Shown: piece after piece, positions 1,523 to 10,777 of the stretch | Position numbering within the stretch: the first letter of the stretch is position 1 | How the letters are laid out: each line of letters opens with the position of its first letter | Source: a bacterium | GTDB lineage: Bacteria > SAR324 > XYD2-FULL-50-16 | Assembly (NCBI GenBank): GCA_024275165.1 | Contig: JAJRZQ010000047.1 | Span: 1-10,777, forward strand | Length of the DNA stretch: 10,777 nucleotides | Reading direction: 5' to 3' | Notes under the pieces: model-generated | Told to the model about the DNA's origin: nothing | Seen by the model: only the letters and a program-made list of their open reading frames with translations | The model's database searches: none | Made by a program: the position numbers and the translations under genes

Positions 1523-2356
1523 ATGCCCTGGATTTTTATGCTTATTCTCGTACTTTTCCCTCCGCCCGTTGGGGCAGTCACTTGCAAAAGCTTTCAACAA
1601 CCCGCAGACTTCACTGCTTTTTATGAACGGGTCAAAGCGACGAATCCCCTGAACCTATCCCGCTTTAGCCTGCTGTTGGAACTCAGCCCCTGCGAGAGCA
1701 GCGAGTGCGACCAAGCCAATCGAGGTCAACGGCTGGATAAAAAAGAGATCCTGCATCTGTATAAAAATGAAACGAGCAAGCGCGTTAATTTTCTGGTGGG
1801 GCGCAACTCCCCCCAATGTTTTTTGAATCTCCGCGAAAAAGATTACAAATGTACCCGCTGTACCGAAACCCGCAACGAAAATTGCCGCGCCACCAAGGTG
1901 GAGGGTTCCAAAACCCTGCTCAAGGGGACCAATATCGACAGCGCGGACTTCGATTTTTTAAGCGACCCCTCTTATCAAAACCAGTGCAACCCCTGGCCCC
2001 AAAACCCCAATTACCTACTTTTCACTGCCCTTGGCCCGGCCACCAGCCTGTGGAGTAAGGTTGAAATCTATCTGGAGAAAAAAAGAGAGATCCCCGTATT
2101 GGTGCGTTTTTTTTATCAAGACCGCTTAACCAAGGTGTATCGCTTTTACCCCCAGTCTTATGTACAGCTTCAAGGGCATTGGTACTCCACCCAATTTCGG
2201 GTGCGCGGGGTGGAGGGGGACGAAAACCGCTTTTTCTTTGAAACGGCGGTCAAGGTACTGGCCAACGCCACGGGGCAATTGCAGCTTTTCCTCGACCCGA
2301 ATCAAGACCCCCTGCTGGGAGCAAAGGAGGCGCGTGAAGCCCTTTTTATCCCTTAG
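1523..2356 (+). CDS. Periplasmic LolA-like / outer-membrane lipoprotein-sorting type protein, cysteine-rich
   Basis: The protein has 277 residues. Residues 1-18 form a hydrophobic signal-like segment ending in VGA, a plausible signal peptidase I site, although the usual N-terminal Lys/Arg is absent. The mature part resembles the LolA-like family encoded next to MMPL/RND exporters. It has a GTNIDSADFDFL segment (136-146), then strand-like stretches with SKVEIYLEKK, a second strand pair and a G-W-Y motif near 218-221. Such proteins are thought to hold a lipid or other apolar ligand in the periplasm. Eight cysteines (21, 57, 62, 99, 110, 113, 121, 155) are unusual for this fold and could form four disulfides. 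The family call rests on pattern similarity and the neighbouring OMP and RND genes. It is the first gene of a three-gene operon and overlaps the next by 23 bases. Confidence 0.65.
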   Translation: MPWIFMLILVLFPPPVGAVTCKSFQQPADFTAFYERVKATNPLNLSRFSLLLELSPCESSECDQANRGQRLDKKEILHLYKNETSKRVNFLVGRNSPQCFLNLREKDYKCTRCTETRNENCRATKVEGSKTLLKGTNIDSADFDFLSDPSYQNQCNPWPQNPNYLLFTALGPATSLWSKVEIYLEKKREIPVLVRFFYQDRLTKVYRFYPQSYVQLQGHWYSTQFRVRGVEGDENRFFFETAVKVLANATGQLQLFLDPNQDPLLGAKEAREALFIP

Positions 2357-3710
2357 CTTGATGGTTTATGGATGCATGCTGGCAGCCCCGCTTTACGGCC
2401 AAGACTTAAATCTGGAGGAACCCCCGCCCCCCGAGCCGGAGATACGCCCCCAAACAACCCCCGCCGTAAACGACGATTGGCAGGTTTTTTATCTCAAAGC
2501 GAGTTATCGCTCGACCTATCGTTTAAAAACCAGAGTCAGCAACGATTCTTGGGGCCTCCCCTTAAACCCGGGACTGGTTTGGGAAGAACGGAAATTTACC
2601 CTCTTTAACCTCTATTCCGCGGATTCAAAAATACAGGTGTCGGAAACTCTTTCCAGCTACCTCCGCTTTGATTATTACTTTGTGCAAAATTGGGAGGTCT
2701 TGGGCCGCAGCTATCAAGATCAACCCGCCGTGGACTTATGGGAGGCCTATCTCGACTGGAACGGTGAGGGCCAACAAGTTCGCATCGGGGGCCAACAACT
2801 GCGTTTGGGACGAGTGGACTTTGAAAGCCCCATTGATGTATTAAACCTCTACGACTCCGATAAATACGCTCACCTAGACTATCAAGACAATCGCTATCTG
2901 ATGCCCGCCCTCGTGTATGAAAAGGATTTGGGGAAAAATCGACTCAAGCTGTATTGGGCCCCCTTTCAACGGCTGAGCGAAAAAGCGAGGAGCCTGCGGG
3001 CCAGTTCGGGGGTGGTTTATCAAAATCGAGCAAGTACCTGGGAATGGGATTTGGGCCTTTTTTCCTGGCTCGATGTGGATAACGAGGTCCGGCTCGAACC
3101 CCAGCTCAACAAACAAGGAGAAGAAACCACCTGGACCCTCGCTTTGGAAGACGCGCCCTTGAGCTTTGTCTTTTTCAGCACCGAGGGCCCCATCGGCTCT
3201 TGGCTTTTCAAAGGGGATTTTGGTTTTTTTTACAACAAGCATGTCTATCATTTCTATGCCCCCCCGGGAAAGGAGATTTCCGACCTGGCGGAAGTAAAGA
3301 CCTTAAGCCTAAAGCAAACCGCCTTTGCCATGAGCATCGAAAAAAAATCAGGAGATTGGTTTTACTTGGGACAAATCTCCAGTATCGCCCTGGCCAAGGC
3401 CCCAGCGGGAACCCGAATCTTCCAGTTTGAAAATACCCCAAACAAGGTGGCCCAGGAACGAAATTTAATACGGCACCAAGGGGCGGTGGGGCTCGCTTAT
3501 GAAATCTTTGACGGAAATGAGATCCGAGGCTTTGTGTTCGCCAGCTTGCCCTATCGCCGTCAAGGGGGATTGCTGGAATGGTTGTGGAAGGGCTCTAGAG
3601 GAACGGAGGTGCGGGTTTTCCTCTCCCATGTGGGAATGGAGACCAGCTTGTTGACCCAACGGGCGACAAGCCTAAATCGCTTGGAAAGTCAATATAGTCT
3701 TAGGTTTTAG
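2334..3710 (+). CDS. Outer-membrane beta-barrel protein (DUF1302-like porin/partner)
   Basis: I chose the GTG at 2334, giving 458 residues. AAGGAGG at 2324-2330 lies just before it, and the resulting N-terminus (Lys2, hydrophobic 3-20, then LYGQ) is a good signal peptide. The frame extends upstream to an ATG at 2160, but that would add basic, non-signal sequence wholly inside the preceding gene. After a proline- and glutamate-rich linker (about residues 28-42) the protein has alternating aromatic/polar strands typical of a barrel. These include LYSADSKIQVSETL and the GQQVRIGGQQLRLGRVDF segment. It ends in QYSLRF, with the terminal Phe expected of a BAM recognition signal. Proteins of this kind often accompany LolA-like and MMPL genes. 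The exact family is inferred. It may be the outer-membrane exit or acceptor for the pump. Confidence 0.7.
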   Translation: MKPFLSLSLMVYGCMLAAPLYGQDLNLEEPPPPEPEIRPQTTPAVNDDWQVFYLKASYRSTYRLKTRVSNDSWGLPLNPGLVWEERKFTLFNLYSADSKIQVSETLSSYLRFDYYFVQNWEVLGRSYQDQPAVDLWEAYLDWNGEGQQVRIGGQQLRLGRVDFESPIDVLNLYDSDKYAHLDYQDNRYLMPALVYEKDLGKNRLKLYWAPFQRLSEKARSLRASSGVVYQNRASTWEWDLGLFSWLDVDNEVRLEPQLNKQGEETTWTLALEDAPLSFVFFSTEGPIGSWLFKGDFGFFYNKHVYHFYAPPGKEISDLAEVKTLSLKQTAFAMSIEKKSGDWFYLGQISSIALAKAPAGTRIFQFENTPNKVAQERNLIRHQGAVGLAYEIFDGNEIRGFVFASLPYRRQGGLLEWLWKGSRGTEVRVFLSHVGMETSLLTQRATSLNRLESQYSLRF

Positions 3711-3712
3711 CT

Positions 3713-6700
3713 ATGAGTATCAAAATCCTAGGCCGCTTTTACCGTCACCCCAAACTCACCTTAATTCTTTTTTTCCTCATCAGTTTGTTTTTTGCCGGGG
3801 TTGTTTTCGAGCGGCTCTTTGACGGGCAATCCCGCTTAATTTTAGATACGAGCTTTGAACCCTTTTTTGATAATTCCAGCCCTGCTTATGTCTACTCCAA
3901 ACAGATGGAGCAGGAGTTCGGTTCTGAAAATATTCTTTTGATCGCCCTAGCCCCCACCCCCATTCAGGGCCAACAGCGCCTGGATTTGGAGTTTTTTTTA
4001 AACTTAAAAAAACTACGGGACCAACTCAAGGCCCGGCCCTTAATCGAGAGCCTCACCAGTTTGTTGGATGTCCCCCAGACCAAAGGGGATTGCCTGGGCA
4101 AGAGCTATTTTCACCGCTTGAGACCCGGCGGAGTCTGCCTGGATATTTTAACCCAGATTCAAGCGAACCTAGCCTGTCTAAAAAAGGGGATTCCAGACCC
4201 TATTGAAGCCTCCCCTTTGGCTTTAGATTCCTTTACCCTAGACAGTACCTTAGAACCCAGGGCAGCGAAACCCGCTTTTGCCTGTACCCAAGCTATTTTA
4301 AATCAGGGACGAGCCGCCTTGTGGCTTGCGGGGGAGGATGAGACCCATCAGGTCTTAGAGAAAATCAAGGCCACTCCCCTCATCCGTCAAGACCTGTTGA
4401 GCTTTGACGCCAATGCGACGGCCATCATTGTACGCCTCTACTCCACTGATCCCAAACAACGCAACCAAGAATTGGCGGACTTGGAAAAAATCTTTGCCGA
4501 TTATCGGGGAATGGGGATGCAAATCTATTACAGCGGGCTGCCCAGAGAAGAGCTGGAGGTTGCCCGTTTATTGCTGCAAGACCTCTCTCGGTTGATTCCC
4601 GCCTCATTGGTACTCTTGACCTGCATGACCTTTCTCTCCTTTCGCAGCTTGACCCCCCCGCTGCTGCTTTTGGGCAACTTGGCCCTCGGCTTGCTCTGGA
4701 CCGCCGGAGTATTTGGCTTGAGCGGGGCCCGGCTCAACCTGATCACCCTTGTCTTGCCGCCTTTAGTGACCACCGTGGGGACCAGCTACGCAATCCATGT
4801 CTTGGCTCAGTATATTCAAGCGGCCAAGAAATCGAACCTCAGCAAGACAGAGGTCATTGAGCGAACCCTAGAAAAGGTAAGCCTCCCGATTTTATTAGCC
4901 TTAATCACGACCCTATTGGGCTTTTTTGCCCTGGTTTTAAGCCCCATCCCCGCGATTCGCGAAATGGGAATCTTCGCCTCAGTCGGGATTTTTTTCATGG
5001 CTGCCTTTGCCATGGTCGTGCTGCCTTGCGGCCTCTACTTGCTGCCTCGGCCCGCTTTGGAATCCGCCGCCATGCGACGCAGCTTTTTTGAGGCCCTCTT
5101 GACTCGTTTAGGCGCCTTAGTGACGAGTCAACCCCGCCCGATTCTCTGGGTTTTTTTAACCGTCACTCTCACCGCCCTATTGGGGGCCACTCAAGTCAGG
5201 GTGGACAGTAAAACCCAAAACTTCCCCGCTCGATCCAAGATCACGCAGGATCATCAATATTTACAAACCCATTTTGGAGGCACAGATTTCATTCGCCTTG
5301 TTTTTTCTTCTAAGGACGAGGCAGGTCAACTAGAAAGGGCGGCAACCGTCCAGGGTTTAGTGGCTTTAAAAAAATGGTTGGCCCAGCAGGCCTTGCTCCA
5401 TCCCAACAGTCTGAAAGTACACCGGATGTACAGCCCCTTAGAGTATCTGGAGATATTAAGGGGCGGGCTCGACCATTTAAATGATGAAGAGGTGCGCTTT
5501 TACTTTAACCGCATGGAAAAGGGGTATGGAGCCTTGTTTTTCAATTCACGCCATAGCCTGCTCAGTGTTACCCTGCGCGTCGCCAACCAAAGCACCGCGG
5601 GCTACCTCGCCTTTCAAGAAAAATTACAGGAAAAATTAAAGGAACTCTTTCCCCATTTGCAAGCTAAGTTTACGGGAAATGTGGTTTTGTCTGCGGAGTC
5701 GGCGCACAACATCGCCCAAAGCCAGATCATCAGCTTAGGCTTGGCCTTGGCTTTTATTTTAGTGGTTTTATCCCTGCTGTTTTTTTCCTTCAAGGTGGGC
5801 TTTTTAGCTCTCTTGCCCAATGTAGCCGCGATTTTACTCTTTTTTGGTCTCTTGGGCTTTTCAGGCACCCCGATCAGCGCGATTTTATCGGTAATCGGGG
5901 CCATTGCCTTAGGAATCGGGGTAGACGACTCCATTCATTTCATCACCCATTTCAACCAGAATTTAAACGACTTAAAAGACCCGAAGGAAGCGGCGGAAAA
6001 AACCCTCCGCAGCGTGGGAAAGCCCATGATTTACACGACCTTGGCCTTAATGCTGGGCTTTGGGGTTTTAATGGCGAGCGAAGTCACCGGGCAAGCCAGC
6101 TTCGGTTGGCTCACGGCCTTTACTTTGTTTTTAAGCCTCTTGAGTAATTTGTTTTTACTCCCCGCTTTGTTGGTGCGGGTTCGCTTTTTTGTCATTTGGG
6201 ATTACTTGAATATTCGCTATTCCTCCGACTTCATCCAAAGCATTAATCTCTTTCAGAATATGTCTTTAGTGGAGTCTCGCCTCGTCACGCTGGTGGGAGA
6301 AACCAAGGATTATCAGGCGGGGGAGATTATTTTTCAGGAAAACGACGAAGGAAAAGAACTCTTTATTATCTTAGAAGGGGCAATCGAAGTCTATTTCGAT
6401 GAGAAATATCATGGAGAAAATCGTTTGGTTGACCTCTTTAAGCGAGGGCAGGTTTTTGGGGAAATGGCCTTGTTCGAGCAGGGAAGCCGGATGGATTCGG
6501 CTCGCGCTATTGTGCCTTCTAAACTGCTTTTACTCAACAAGCACAATTTAACTCGGCTGAAGGATAGTTTTCCCCAAACCGCCTTAAAACTTTATTTAAA
6601 CCTCTGTAAAAACCTCAGCGTTTCTATTTACCATTGCCAATTGAAGCTGCAAGATCACGCGAATTCGCCCTCTTTTGCTCCATCGGTCGGAAAACCCGAC

Positions 6701-7441
6701 CTCTTCCACGCCCTGACCAAGATTCGCAGTATGCGCGGCCCCACCGTAGAAACCAAGGACAACTGGCCGCGTTTTAGGGATTATTATCAGCGGCTCTTTC
6801 CCCCTCATCTTTTTGAGGGAAAAGGAGAGTTGAGCGCGCCAGAGGATTATCTCCGCTTAGTCAACGAAGTCTTAGAAAAAAAAGGAATCACCTATTACCA
6901 GAGATTGCTTTTAAAACGCTTTTCCCATTTGGGTTATCCATTAAAAAAAGAGGAAAATCAACGCTTGGAACTGTTGATCGCAAAGATTCGCAGCGGAGAA
7001 GTGGTGGAAATCAAACCGAGTTTTTCCAACCTCTTTCAGGGATTGGGGGCAAAAGAATTAGATTGGATTGAAAAAAAATTAGAAATCAAAGAGGTGCCCC
7101 AAGACTCCACCCTGTTTTCTGTGGGAGAGTATTCCGATTCCATGCTGGTTGTTTTGCGAGGAAGAATTCATAGTTTTGCCTCCTCCCCCCCTGAGGGCGA
7201 AACGCCCATCAGCGTTTTGAGCAGTGGAGACATCATTGGAGAGACCGCTCTATTTGTGCCCGATTACCGGCGCGAGGTAACCGCCATCGCTGTCGAGCCC
7301 ACTCAAATTTTTTATTTGAGTTCTCGAGGTTTAGAGAAACTCATCAAGGAAAATAAAAAATTAGGTGCCACCCTCACCTATAATCTGGTTGGAATTTTTT
7401 TAGCCCAACTGCGTCGTTGCCTCGACCAAGCTTTTGGCTAA
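3713..7441 (+). CDS. RND/MMPL family exporter with two C-terminal cyclic-nucleotide-binding-like domains
   Basis: The 1242 residues divide as follows. TM1 (about 12-32) is followed by a periplasmic loop (33-290) and TM2-TM6 (about 295-439). TM7 (about 475-495), a second loop and TM8-TM12 (about 671-822) complete the duplicated RND core. The second half has the TM10 motif GIGVDDSIHF with Asp738/Asp739, the likely proton-relay acids. The matching site in the first half is GTSYAIH (356-362), without acids, as in COG1033-type predicted exporters. Two CRP-like domains follow in the cytoplasm, at about 850-975 and 1108-1235, separated by a roughly 130-residue helical linker. Their phosphate-binding cassettes read GEMALF (916-921, then Arg926) and GETALF (1176-1181, then Arg1187). 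Both keep Gly-Glu and an Arg but lack the Ser/Thr-Ala pair that contacts the nucleotide in CRP, so the ligand is uncertain. The ATG lies 2 bases after the OMP stop, so it is co-transcribed. The substrate is unknown; the LolA-like partner hints at something apolar. Confidence 0.9.
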   Translation: MSIKILGRFYRHPKLTLILFFLISLFFAGVVFERLFDGQSRLILDTSFEPFFDNSSPAYVYSKQMEQEFGSENILLIALAPTPIQGQQRLDLEFFLNLKKLRDQLKARPLIESLTSLLDVPQTKGDCLGKSYFHRLRPGGVCLDILTQIQANLACLKKGIPDPIEASPLALDSFTLDSTLEPRAAKPAFACTQAILNQGRAALWLAGEDETHQVLEKIKATPLIRQDLLSFDANATAIIVRLYSTDPKQRNQELADLEKIFADYRGMGMQIYYSGLPREELEVARLLLQDLSRLIPASLVLLTCMTFLSFRSLTPPLLLLGNLALGLLWTAGVFGLSGARLNLITLVLPPLVTTVGTSYAIHVLAQYIQAAKKSNLSKTEVIERTLEKVSLPILLALITTLLGFFALVLSPIPAIREMGIFASVGIFFMAAFAMVVLPCGLYLLPRPALESAAMRRSFFEALLTRLGALVTSQPRPILWVFLTVTLTALLGATQVRVDSKTQNFPARSKITQDHQYLQTHFGGTDFIRLVFSSKDEAGQLERAATVQGLVALKKWLAQQALLHPNSLKVHRMYSPLEYLEILRGGLDHLNDEEVRFYFNRMEKGYGALFFNSRHSLLSVTLRVANQSTAGYLAFQEKLQEKLKELFPHLQAKFTGNVVLSAESAHNIAQSQIISLGLALAFILVVLSLLFFSFKVGFLALLPNVAAILLFFGLLGFSGTPISAILSVIGAIALGIGVDDSIHFITHFNQNLNDLKDPKEAAEKTLRSVGKPMIYTTLALMLGFGVLMASEVTGQASFGWLTAFTLFLSLLSNLFLLPALLVRVRFFVIWDYLNIRYSSDFIQSINLFQNMSLVESRLVTLVGETKDYQAGEIIFQENDEGKELFIILEGAIEVYFDEKYHGENRLVDLFKRGQVFGEMALFEQGSRMDSARAIVPSKLLLLNKHNLTRLKDSFPQTALKLYLNLCKNLSVSIYHCQLKLQDHANSPSFAPSVGKPDLFHALTKIRSMRGPTVETKDNWPRFRDYYQRLFPPHLFEGKGELSAPEDYLRLVNEVLEKKGITYYQRLLLKRFSHLGYPLKKEENQRLELLIAKIRSGEVVEIKPSFSNLFQGLGAKELDWIEKKLEIKEVPQDSTLFSVGEYSDSMLVVLRGRIHSFASSPPEGETPISVLSSGDIIGETALFVPDYRREVTAIAVEPTQIFYLSSRGLEKLIKENKKLGATLTYNLVGIFLAQLRRCLDQAFG

Positions 7442-7558: not shown

Positions 7559-8476
7559 ATGCGTCGAAAAATTTTACTTTTAATCTTTGGTATTTTTTCT
7601 CTCACCGGTGCGAGCAGCACCCTGTTGCTGATCTGGGGGCAGGTGGAGGCAATCCACCAGGCCTTGGAGTTGCAGTTCAAACAAGCCTCTCTCACCCTAC
7701 AGCAAAATCAAAACAACCTGCTGGAGCAAGGAAAAATGCTGCTGCGAGCCGTGCAAAAAGGGGGGGACCCTCTAACAGAGAGCAATGCCTTAGGCTTGCC
7801 CTTAATCGGCTTAGAGATCAATGGAGAACGGCGTTTTGGCCCTCCCCTCCCCCCCAAAGAGGGGTTGGCGCAGATCGGCTCAAAACAGGCTTGGGTTTTT
7901 AAGTTCCCCCAAAAATCGGGAAAAATAGCCTTCGCGGCTGAAAAAATATTACCCCGCCTGCAATTGAGCGTCAGCGGCTTATGGCTGAAAAACCAATGGA
8001 TGGCGCCGTTGAAAAACAAAAAGCAAAATCAAGAAGCGGCTTTATTGCTCAAGGGGGTTCAACCAGGAGAGGTTCTCACCCTCCCTGCTTCAGGTTGGGG
8101 TTCCATGCTGAAATCCTTGCTCGGTCACCGACAGACGATCTACTTGGCCCTACCCCTTGGGCAAGGTTATTTGATTATTCCAGCGGAAAAAGAAGCCCTG
8201 GAGGCGGGAGCGAAACAATTTTTATGGATCTCCATCACCGTAGGCACCCTCTTTGGTCTGTTTGCCCTGGTGGTGTTGAATCGCATGCTGAGCCGATGGG
8301 TCTTGTCCCCCATTGAGCAAGTGGACCAAGCCTTATTTCGCATCCGCGCAGGAGAGCTTTCCGCCAGACTCAATTTTACCAGGGCCGATGTGATCGGGAA
8401 TTTAGCCCGCAATCTAGATGACTTTGTCGAAAGCATCGAAGCCGAGGTACTGCCGAGCTTTCACCGCCTAGCATAA
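7559..8476 (+). CDS. Chemoreceptor (MCP), N-terminal sensor and HAMP part, ended by in-frame stop
   Basis: This 305-residue reading frame is the front half of a methyl-accepting chemotaxis protein. TM1 spans about 4-26, a periplasmic sensor region 27-219, and TM2 about 220-241. The HAMP domain covers about 242-295, with the conserved Pro251, AGEL at 264-267 and a DVIGNLARNLDDF second helix. I cannot assign the sensor region to a known fold. The TAA at 8474-8476 stops translation just where the signalling helices should begin. The same frame then continues open to 9268 with the missing half. Alone, this product would be a membrane receptor unable to reach CheA/CheW. The start ATG has only a weak AAGG upstream. 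The most likely reading is a single receptor gene carrying a nonsense mutation, or a base error in the sequence. Confidence 0.8.
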   Translation: MRRKILLLIFGIFSLTGASSTLLLIWGQVEAIHQALELQFKQASLTLQQNQNNLLEQGKMLLRAVQKGGDPLTESNALGLPLIGLEINGERRFGPPLPPKEGLAQIGSKQAWVFKFPQKSGKIAFAAEKILPRLQLSVSGLWLKNQWMAPLKNKKQNQEAALLLKGVQPGEVLTLPASGWGSMLKSLLGHRQTIYLALPLGQGYLIIPAEKEALEAGAKQFLWISITVGTLFGLFALVVLNRMLSRWVLSPIEQVDQALFRIRAGELSARLNFTRADVIGNLARNLDDFVESIEAEVLPSFHRLA

Positions 8477-9268
8477 GGAAATTTTGAGACCCAAGCCTCC
8501 GGCTTTATCCAAGAAGCCTTAAAAGAAGCGACTTTAAGCTTGAGCGAACGGGTCAACTTAATGATGAATCTCTCGGGGCAAATCGCGGAATTTTACAGCT
8601 CCTTGTTGGCGGCCAGCGAAGGAATGAGCAGCTCGGCGGCCAGCCAGTCGGGTACGGCGGAAGAGCTTTCCCAAACCATACAGCAGATGAACCAAGAGAT
8701 CACCGAAAACTCCGACAACCTAGACGAAGCGGAAAGCCTTTCTTCCAAAACCGCCCAAGACCTGAGTATCGCATCGCAAATCGTGGGCAAGGCAATGGAT
8801 ATGATGAACGAGATCCTACAGGTGGTTTCCAGCATTAGAGACATTGCGGGTCAGACGAACTTATTGGCCCTCAACGCGGCAATTGAGTCGGCCAAGGCAG
8901 GGGAGCAGGGTAAAGGCTTTGCCGTGGTTGCCGATGAGGTGCGAAACCTTGCCGAACGAAGTGGGAAGGCCGCGGCCGAAGCGGCAAGCCGCAGCCAGGA
9001 GGGGAGCGCAATCGCGGAACAAGTTAAGGAAACCCTAGCGGCCGTGGCCCAGGATGCCGATTCTTCGGCAAAACTGGTGCAGAAAATCACGATCCGCAAC
9101 CACCAACTAGCCCGTGAGGTGGGAGAAATCGAGCATGCGGCCCTAGACCTAGCCAAAACGGTTCAGGGCAATCACAATGAAGCCGAAAAGTTAGAAAACC
9201 TTGCTGATGAACTGGCGGAAAAGGTTTCCATGGTTCGTTCAGAGTTGCAAAAATTTCGCCTTGGCTGA
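8477..9268 (+). pseudogene. Chemoreceptor (MCP), C-terminal signalling part, in frame after the stop
   Basis: The frame runs on directly from the TAA at 8474-8476 for 263 codons and would complete a receptor of about 569 residues. It has the methylation/coiled-coil region, then the kinase-control hairpin tip with [19 protein letters not shown] and [15 protein letters not shown] (Ala437 in full-length numbering, encoded from 8867). A descending helix ends near QKFRLG. If translated separately, the first start codons would be TTG at 8540 or ATG at 8561. Neither has a Shine-Dalgarno sequence, so independent expression as a soluble receptor is doubtful. Codon use and coiled-coil character show no further damage, which argues that the stop is recent, is an error, or is read through. 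Confidence 0.75.
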
Positions 9269-9559: not shown

Positions 9560-9979
9560 TTGTTTCGCATCCTCCATCAGGACTTGTCCGCCAAAGACCT
9601 AACAGACCTAGTTGCCAGTACCAAAGCCGGCGCGATCAGCTTGTTTATCGGGGTCACCCGAGACCACCAACAGGGCAGGGAAGTCGAATACCTTGAGTAC
9701 GAGGCCTTTGTGCCCATGGCCGAAAAAATGCTGGAACAAATTGCCCAAGAGGCAAAAAATAAATGGAAGCTGGAAAAGGTCGCGATCCATCACCGCATTG
9801 GCCCCGTCGCGGTGGGAAAAGAAAGCGTGATCATTGCCGTTTCCTCGGCACATCGCAAAGAAGCCATTGAGGCTTGCCACTTTTTGATTGATCGGCTCAA
9901 AGAAAAGGTTCCCATTTGGAAAAAGGAATATTTTTCCAATGGAGAGGCTCAATGGTTGGTGAACTTCCCCCGCCAATAA
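9560..9979 (+). CDS. moaE: Molybdopterin synthase catalytic subunit MoaE
   Basis: The protein has 139 residues; it inserts two sulfurs from MoaD into precursor Z to make molybdopterin. Family motifs are GAISLFIGVTR (24-34), LEYEAFVPMA (near 45-54), a HHRIGPVAVG stretch, SSAHRKEA and the C-terminal LKEKVPIWKKEY. Lys114 and Lys121 correspond to the active-site lysines 119 and 126 of the E. coli enzyme. The start is a TTG directly after the moaD TGA, in the same frame. GGAGG at 9551-9555, inside the moaD end, serves as ribosome site 4 bases upstream, and no other start keeps the first strand. Translation is probably coupled to moaD. Its 3' end overlaps the convergent mob gene by 31 bases. Confidence 0.93.
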   Translation: MFRILHQDLSAKDLTDLVASTKAGAISLFIGVTRDHQQGREVEYLEYEAFVPMAEKMLEQIAQEAKNKWKLEKVAIHHRIGPVAVGKESVIIAVSSAHRKEAIEACHFLIDRLKEKVPIWKKEYFSNGEAQWLVNFPRQ

Positions 9980-10777
9980 GCACGGGCCTTTTCTACATCA
10001 CCCGGTTCATTGGCGTTAAACAGTTGGGGCCAAAGCTCTAATGAAAGCTGAACCTCTTGATAAGGCAGTTTGTTAAAACTCTTGACTAAGCTGAATTTAA
10101 GTTGAAAAAACGCGGCGCGCAGGTATCGGGCTGTCGCCGGTTCATAAATCCCCGCGAGAGGCTCAATCCCTTCGCGCTTGCAGAGAGTTGCCGGTTTTAG
10201 GGGATCACGGCCTTGGATTAAGGTTTTTAACCCCTCGGGCCCTAAGCAGGCCAAATCCGCGGATAAAATCAGCCAAGCCGCTTTGGGGTCTTTCATTTGC
10301 AGGCTCAAGATTCCCCCTAAGGGGCCGGCGTCTAAAAAGCGGTCGGGAACTGGTTCCATGCCAAAGGAGTTGAGTTCTTGTTCCACCCTGAAAGAAAGCA
10401 CCGGAGGAAAGCCGAAACACCGGGTCACCAGATCTTTGAGGTACTTTAAATGGGGCCCTCGACCAAAATCCAACCCCGCTTTATCTTGCCCCATGCGGCG
10501 GCTCCACCCCCCGGCGAGAATCGCGACCTTCAGAGGGCGGGTGCGGAGCAAGTACCCCTGTAGGCGAGGCAGCAGCCATGCGAAAGTCTCGCTGGGAGGT
10601 TGATCCCAGCTAAAGGCCAAGTCTTCTGCCAAACTATTGTTGATCGCTTGGGCTTGCGCCTCGCTGGGGCACTGAATCGCCAGCAACCCCGGTTTGGGTT
10701 GCGGGGGGGCCTCATCTTGTTGTAGGCAGTGGATACGGGGGTGATCTAAACTGGCCCAGCCCTCCAATAAAAGAAGA
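9949..10777 (-). CDS. mobA: Molybdenum cofactor guanylyltransferase MobA domain, with N-terminal MobB-like segment (partial at window edge)
   Basis: The frame is open to the right window edge, so the N-terminus is missing; a TTG at 10767 is not a convincing start. The C-terminal 193 residues are a full-length MobA domain, which transfers GMP from GTP to Mo-molybdopterin. Its features are AILAGGWSRRMGQDKAG for nucleotide binding, DAGPLGGI, an SADLACL strand in the place of the metal-binding Asp motif, PLAGIY and the NANEPGDVEKA end. The roughly 80 residues before it begin LLLLEGW..LDHPRI. That resembles the VEGFK..PKIE region of MobB, a GTP-binding protein of the same pathway, so a MobB-MobA fusion is likely but inferred. 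It faces moaD-moaE tail to tail with a 31-base overlap and no terminator between. Confidence 0.85.
   Translation of the reverse strand, partial: LLLLEGWASLDHPRIHCLQQDEAPPQPKPGLLAIQCPSEAQAQAINNSLAEDLAFSWDQPPSETFAWLLPRLQGYLLRTRPLKVAILAGGWSRRMGQDKAGLDFGRGPHLKYLKDLVTRCFGFPPVLSFRVEQELNSFGMEPVPDRFLDAGPLGGILSLQMKDPKAAWLILSADLACLGPEGLKTLIQGRDPLKPATLCKREGIEPLAGIYEPATARYLRAAFFQLKFSLVKSFNKLPYQEVQLSLELWPQLFNANEPGDVEKARAYWRGKFTNH

Follow-up and report, generated by a model that had tools for sequence, protein, structure and literature searches.

An HAE3-like RND pump carrying two cyclic nucleotide-binding-like domains in a conserved SAR324 gene cassette

Domain architecture of the fusion protein

The window analysed here is the whole 10,777-base contig JAJRZQ010000047.1, part of a SAR324 genome assembly of 2.69 Mb (98% complete, 47 contigs). 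Its central feature is a plus-strand gene at 3713-7441, an uninterrupted open reading frame encoding 1242 amino acids (aa), in which an exporter of the RND/MMPL type is fused to two cyclic nucleotide-binding domains (CNBDs). This gene is the last of three adjacent genes on the same strand, following those for a LolA-like periplasmic protein and a putative outer-membrane protein (OMP), and starts 2 bp past the stop codon of the latter.

Residues 1-822 (3713-6178) form an RND/MMPL core of the HAE3 type with 12 transmembrane (TM) helices. Two MMPL repeats were detected by Pfam (7.9e-29; PF03176 101.1 bits against a cut-off of 20.5), and the best-scoring family for the core was the HAE3 NCBIfam TIGR00921 at 192.1 bits, which is below its curated cut-off of 351.9, and the core is therefore termed HAE3-like only. 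Sterol-sensing domain matches were also returned by Pfam. An AlphaFold model of residues 1-985 (predicted local distance difference test, pLDDT, 81.7) contained 12 TM helices and two periplasmic domains, a large periplasmic loop following each of TM1 and TM7, with the first CNBD directly behind the core. Foldseek matched the core to MmpL4/5, MmpL3, NPC1 and HpnN with E values down to 5e-24. The core fold, the 12 TM helices and an aspartate in TM10 are shared with MmpL3/4/5 and HpnN, which are MMPL/HAE3-type exporters of lipids and siderophores; these proteins lack a CNBD, however, and their known cytoplasmic partners are separate proteins, as far as structure titles indicate (MmpL5 with AcpM). 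In the window protein the TM10 position is an Asp pair, D738-D739 (5924-5929), conserved in the alignment and present as the same motif in paralogues, and is presumed to be the proton relay. The loss of the TM4 Asp was considered as a special feature and set aside, paralogues in the same genome also being without an Asp-Tyr type motif there. Four cysteines of the first periplasmic domain, C127, C142, C155 and C191 (4091-4285), are invariant in 18/18 homologues and likely form disulfides.

Beyond TM12, a short junction (6179-6262) bearing the motif W829-D830 connects the core to the cytoplasmic tail. CNBD1 comprises residues 848-985 (6254-6667), followed by a helical linker of ~125 residues (986-1110; 6668-7042) and by CNBD2 at residues 1111-1242 (7043-7438). 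Pfam assigned cNMP_binding to two stretches (3.2e-34), which when scored apart gave 72.5 bits for CNBD1 and 54.7 bits for CNBD2 against a PF00027 cut-off of 27.5. An AlphaFold model of residues 823-1242 (pLDDT 79.3), based like that of the core on an alignment of relatives, consisted of two full CRP-like beta-rolls on either side of the linker, each with its short cassette helix and its trailing helices. Fold matches to the tail (Foldseek, VIA-align) included the regulatory subunits of protein kinase A (PKA), protein kinase G (PKG), CRP, Bd1971 and SthK, with Z ~15 for CNBD1 to the Bd1971 CNBD and to CRPs. The initial annotation, made from the sequence of the window, had proposed a 12-TM RND/MMPL pump followed by two CRP-like domains and a helical linker of about 130 residues; Pfam scores over cut-off, AlphaFold models and fold searches agree on this layout, and neither beta-roll of the predicted tail is incomplete. 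In one homologue (L039) the inter-CNBD linker contains a match to TerB (PF05099, tellurite resistance) at about residues 1117-1163, with an E value of 1e-5 and a score above the Pfam cut-off.

Tandem CNBDs are likewise found in the PKA regulatory subunit and PKG, and the spacing of the CNBD1 phosphate-binding cassette is identical to theirs (E to R = 9). In contrast to these proteins, the window family has the ~125-residue helical linker, an eroded CNBD2 and fusion to a transporter. Membrane transport proteins with a cytoplasmic C-terminal CNBD are also known in SthK and the HCN/CNG channels; those are ion channels with one CNBD, whereas the window protein is a proton-driven RND pump.

Unequal conservation of the two CNBD cassettes

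The phosphate-binding cassettes of CNBD1, F-G-E917-M-A-L-F-E-Q-G-S-R926-M-D928-S-A-R-A (6455-6508), and of CNBD2, G-E1177-T-A-L-F-V-P-D-Y-R1186-R-E-V-T-A-I-A (7238-7291), were compared across 23 non-redundant CNBD1 domains, distant single-CNBD relatives included, and 25 CNBD2 domains. In CNBD1 the Gly and the Arg are present in 23/23 and the Glu in 21/23, with Ala two positions past the Arg in 18/23 and Ser or Thr next in 17/23. CNBD2 has an Arg at the corresponding spacing in only four of the 25 domains, although the window copy still has Gly, Glu and Arg. The invariance of Gly and Arg together with the near-invariance of Glu therefore places CNBD1 under the constraint expected of a cyclic mononucleotide (cNMP) pocket, and the rarity of the Arg in CNBD2 indicates that this domain is either drifting or put to a different use.

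The window CNBD1 departs from its family at one position. Its cassette reads G-E-M-A-L-F-E-Q-G-S-R-M-D-S-A, so that Asp928 occupies the canonical place of Ala while the Ser is kept; it meets the G, E and R of the functional-cassette pattern G-E-(x8)-R-x-A and has D for the A, whereas the CNBD1 family consensus meets all four. Apart from the window protein, only its nearest relative among the 23 CNBD1 domains has the substitution. We take Asp928 to be at the position of A211 in PKA RI-alpha, an equivalence drawn from the E-to-R spacing and PKA numbering, and A211D is a Carney-complex mutation with a solved structure, 7lz4, which was among the fold matches to the tail. Weak or altered ligand binding by the window protein is likely on this comparison of sequences. 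The initial annotation had held that both cassettes keep Gly-Glu and an Arg but lack the Ser/Thr-Ala of cAMP binders. The first part stands for the window; as to the second, CNBD1 has the Ser, and it is the Ala that is replaced, by Asp. An unusual, non-cAMP ligand, proposed from that loss, has no support at the level of the family, whose CNBD1 is canonical in nearly all members.

RND proteins work as dimers or trimers, and dimerisation is common among CNBD proteins; the two domains could be structural, holding RND protomers together or anchoring the pump to a partner without any small ligand. The scarcity of the CNBD2 Arg and the presence of Asp928 in the window CNBD1 would both fit such a role. 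The retention of Gly, Arg and Glu in CNBD1 goes beyond what a scaffold would be expected to need, however, and a purely structural role is considered unlikely.

Gene cassette, distribution and relatives

The first gene of the cassette (1523-2356, plus strand) has a strong Shine-Dalgarno sequence directly upstream and encodes a 277-aa protein with a signal peptide and conserved Cys. It is tentatively called LolA-like from its neighbourhood and from weak similarity: PF17131 (LolA_like) scored 14.6 bits on the window protein, under the 30-bit cut-off, and matched 10/14 members of its family at E up to 1, the best at 4.3e-6. True LolA_like genes stand beside single-CNBD RNDs (2.6e-40 in Thalassospira, 6.4e-51 in genome G006 and 4.5e-51 in a desulfobacterial genome), and profile comparison of the window family with these was weak. 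The LolA-like protein has cysteines that are invariant in SAR324, as are those of the pump's first periplasmic domain, which suggests disulfide-stabilised periplasmic partners. The second gene (2334-3710, plus strand) overlaps the first by 23 bp, is preceded by a GGAGG Shine-Dalgarno sequence and encodes 458 aa from a GTG at 2334. Its product has a hydrophobic leader and ends in ...QYSLRF, the terminal Phe being present in only some relatives; searches of Pfam and the PDB returned no match, and a profile comparison of its family with the outer-membrane proteins encoded in single-CNBD cassettes showed similarity (E 3.9e-5). Its assignment as an outer-membrane barrel is accordingly a tentative one, made from sequence features.

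BLAST with the window proteins found both partner families adjoining the RND gene, and the cassette thus complete, at 22 separate loci whose flanks were long enough to judge. The exceptions were L038, with two RND copies of which one has the LolA-like gene only and one neither partner, L039 and L076. No promoter was found upstream of the operon in a scan whose total for the window was no higher than for shuffles. A search of the window for CRP-type operators gave one two-mismatch match, at chance level and away from the operon, and an RNA family search of the window gave none.

The nearest described counterpart is AmeABCD of Castellaniella defragrans, an HAE3 cassette required for monoterpene tolerance (PMC6394551). 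There, too, an HAE3-family RND for hydrophobe export is encoded together with an OMP (DUF1302) and a periplasmic protein of the LolA superfamily (DUF1329). In the parts of that report consulted, no cytoplasmic CNBD is mentioned and a second periplasmic protein is present (PMC6394551). The OMP and LolA families of AmeABCD also differ from those of the window, whose OMP has no DUF1302 match. An AmeABCD-type order of parts is tentatively recognised in the window, although the LolA-like and OMP assignments are weak. In Thalassolituus, an MMPL protein and a LolA-like protein are induced on long-chain alkane (PMC6304351). The SAR324 genome G042 encodes an MMPL-LolA fusion of 1115 aa (L192, 3141-6488) that adjoins an OMP-like gene and resembles this Thalassolituus pair.

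Orthologues were sought in 52 SAR324 genomes and in outsiders, a genome being counted for matches below 1e-120. The double-CNBD layout was present in ~29/52 SAR324 genomes, and dozens of independent genomes encode orthologues of this architecture that are 1160-1310 aa long. The short contig (10.8 kb) and fragmented assembly (47 contigs) would allow a chance or artefactual joining of a pump gene to a CRP-like gene by misassembly, an error against which the initial annotation had cautioned; with a matching architecture in dozens of independent assemblies, all in one clade, this explanation, like that of a sequencing error, was rejected and its probability is negligible. Further matches in a collection of species genomes were nearly all labelled as SAR324, Lambdaproteobacteria or Deltaproteobacteria metagenome-assembled genomes (MAGs), apart from one labelled Myxococcota, one labelled Neomarinimicrobiota and a short Campylobacterales contig. 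The nearest named relative is from Candidatus Lambdaproteobacteria RIFOXYD2_FULL_50_16, at 42% identity. Genome G013 has two different double-CNBD RND genes convergent side by side (L038, 5802-9416 and 9539-13411) and a third on another contig (L039). A phage or mobile origin of the gene was rejected: the phage collection gave no match, none was confirmed in viral contigs, and plasmid matches were weak and partial.

In a tree of RND cores all double-CNBD proteins fell into one clade (100/100). A single origin of all CNBD fusions, favoured by a first tree (99/97), was abandoned when added desulfobacterial rows broke it up, three CNBD gains or losses being needed in the larger tree. A single origin is therefore claimed for the double-CNBD clade alone, whose layout is ancient and a SAR324 hallmark, usually found beside LolA-like and putative OMP genes. 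Single-CNBD cousins exist in Desulfobacterota and Thalassospira: such proteins were detected in Thalassospira, one SAR324 genome, one Proteobacteria MAG and many desulfobacterial genomes, with RND matches extending into a CNBD in ~31 genomes of a sample of 192 from the desulfobacterial class. The Thalassospira marina plasmid MMPL WP_101286615 and the desulfobacterial proteins share with the window protein the RND core, the CNBD and the LolA-like and OMP neighbours, but have one CNBD and only ~25-28% identity. One desulfobacterial locus (L160) has three RND paralogues, two LolA genes and one OMP gene, with a CNBD on one RND only. The CNBD module is, on this evidence, easily gained or lost, because the larger tree requires three changes and L160 has paralogues with and without the fusion next to each other.

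Longer relatives carry other modules after TM12. Of 23 scanned, 15 have a GGDEF-fold domain, 14 of these with a significant CNBD match, and eight have a complete HisKA-HATPase_c kinase placed directly behind TM12. The W-D motif past TM12 is common to the window protein and to the CNBD, CNBD-GGDEF and histidine-kinase relatives. Because G-R-L-D-like motifs stand in place of the GGDEF signature in most of them, the GGDEF-fold domains are probably not cyclases. The RND-CNBD-GGDEF-fold fusions are ~1040-1130 aa long (L161, L162, L174-L183), and their CNBD cassette is largely canonical, being degenerate in L163, L167 and L170. The kinase fusions, of ~990-1036 aa, come from several desulfobacterial genomes (L173, 3256-6318; L185-L191) and have H-boxes such as HELNQPLNAI.

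These relatives open the possibility of a transceptor, in which the RND core senses substrate binding, flux or membrane state and, through TM12, the CNBD tail reports it or binds a partner rather than gating the pump. The joining of GGDEF-fold (15/23) and kinase (8/23) modules at the same W-D junction speaks for such a direction, as do Patched and NPC1, RND relatives whose eukaryotic roles lie in sensing or the handling of sterols, and the histidine-kinase fusions make the pump-as-sensor direction, absent from the initial annotation, a serious rival. On the other side, CNBDs are normally input domains and the window protein has no output domain. Moreover, a LolA_like gene adjoins 8/8 CNBD-only single-CNBD RNDs examined, several also with an OMP gene, and CNBD-only and double-CNBD pumps keep their export partners, whereas the same HMMs found a LolA or OMP gene at 0/23 GGDEF or kinase loci within flanks of a few kb, a contrast that is confounded by shared ancestry. 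For the window protein the transceptor is judged rather doubtful. A broader view, held tentatively and at less than even odds, is that a widespread clade of RND proteins accepts different cytoplasmic signalling modules (CNBD, CNBD-linker-CNBD, CNBD-GGDEF or histidine kinase) at one socket-like junction past TM12, some members being cNMP-gated exporters and others RND-based receptors, bacterial transceptor-type relatives of Patched and NPC1.

Candidate mechanism and other genes of the window

The reading favoured here, with a probability of roughly 0.55, is that the window protein is a lipid or hydrophobe exporter that a cytoplasmic cNMP gates allosterically by binding to CNBD1, CNBD2 having a regulatory or dimerising role. 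The architecture, predicted folds, cassette conservation, operon and double-CNBD ancestry are the established steps towards it; from these we infer the gating, cNMP as the ligand and the direction of control, all of which are predicted only. The lipid or hydrophobe class of substrate is suggested by analogy with HAE3 relatives. A cNMP ligand is made plausible by the genomic complement of cyclases, class III enzymes being encoded in 52/52 SAR324 genomes and the window genome having four class III cyclase domains and eight GGDEF domains. That genome also encodes other CNBD proteins, which may be targets of the cyclase products.

In such an exporter the pump would pass its lipid or hydrophobe to the LolA-like periplasmic carrier and on to the outer-membrane barrel, a route like that of AmeABCD, HpnN and MmpL proteins. 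CNBD1, directly behind TM12, would take up a cyclic mononucleotide produced by class III cyclases, and rearrangement of its trailing helices (C-helix) would reach TM12 by way of the W-D junction helix and switch transport on or off. CNBD2, on its helical linker, would most likely be the regulatory or dimerisation module because the phosphate-contacting Arg has been lost in most relatives. The use of the tail as an input is consistent with a C-terminus that has no catalytic output domain. Given the kept CNBD1 cassette and the universal cyclases, the most economical reading remains one proposed in the initial annotation, in which a cytoplasmic ligand controls the pump directly, but the two domains are not equivalent as that proposal implied, CNBD2 being eroded.

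Several points weigh against cNMP gating. Asp928 stands in the window CNBD1 where cNMP binders have Ala, and CNBD folds that do not bind cNMP are common. The histidine kinase at the matching junction of relatives indicates that an output can be coupled to this RND core, making outside-in signalling possible. In the single-CNBD clade the tail appears dispensable for the cassette, CNBD-less pumps lying beside fused ones at L160.

RND pumps are viewed as proton-driven, with regulation mainly at the level of gene expression. If the favoured reading is true, a second messenger would directly control the export of lipids or hydrophobes towards the outer membrane in SAR324, an abundant deep-ocean group. 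Ligand binding is testable at once on the tail, which is soluble and can be separated from the pump, and the kinase and GGDEF relatives make the direction of RND signalling testable. The component families are known; a search of the open-access literature on MMPL/RND proteins with CNBD, GGDEF, histidine kinase or SAR324 did not find the architecture described, and the combination, its breadth and its asymmetry are apparently undescribed.

Downstream of the fusion gene, a gene for a methyl-accepting chemotaxis protein (7559-9268; HAMP, then MCPsignal) contains an in-frame TAA at 8474-8476 and is a pseudogene, a split gene or the product of a sequence error. At the far end of the window, moaD precedes moaE (9560-9979), the end of which is overlapped by ~30 bases by a MobA-like gene on the minus strand (9949-10776).

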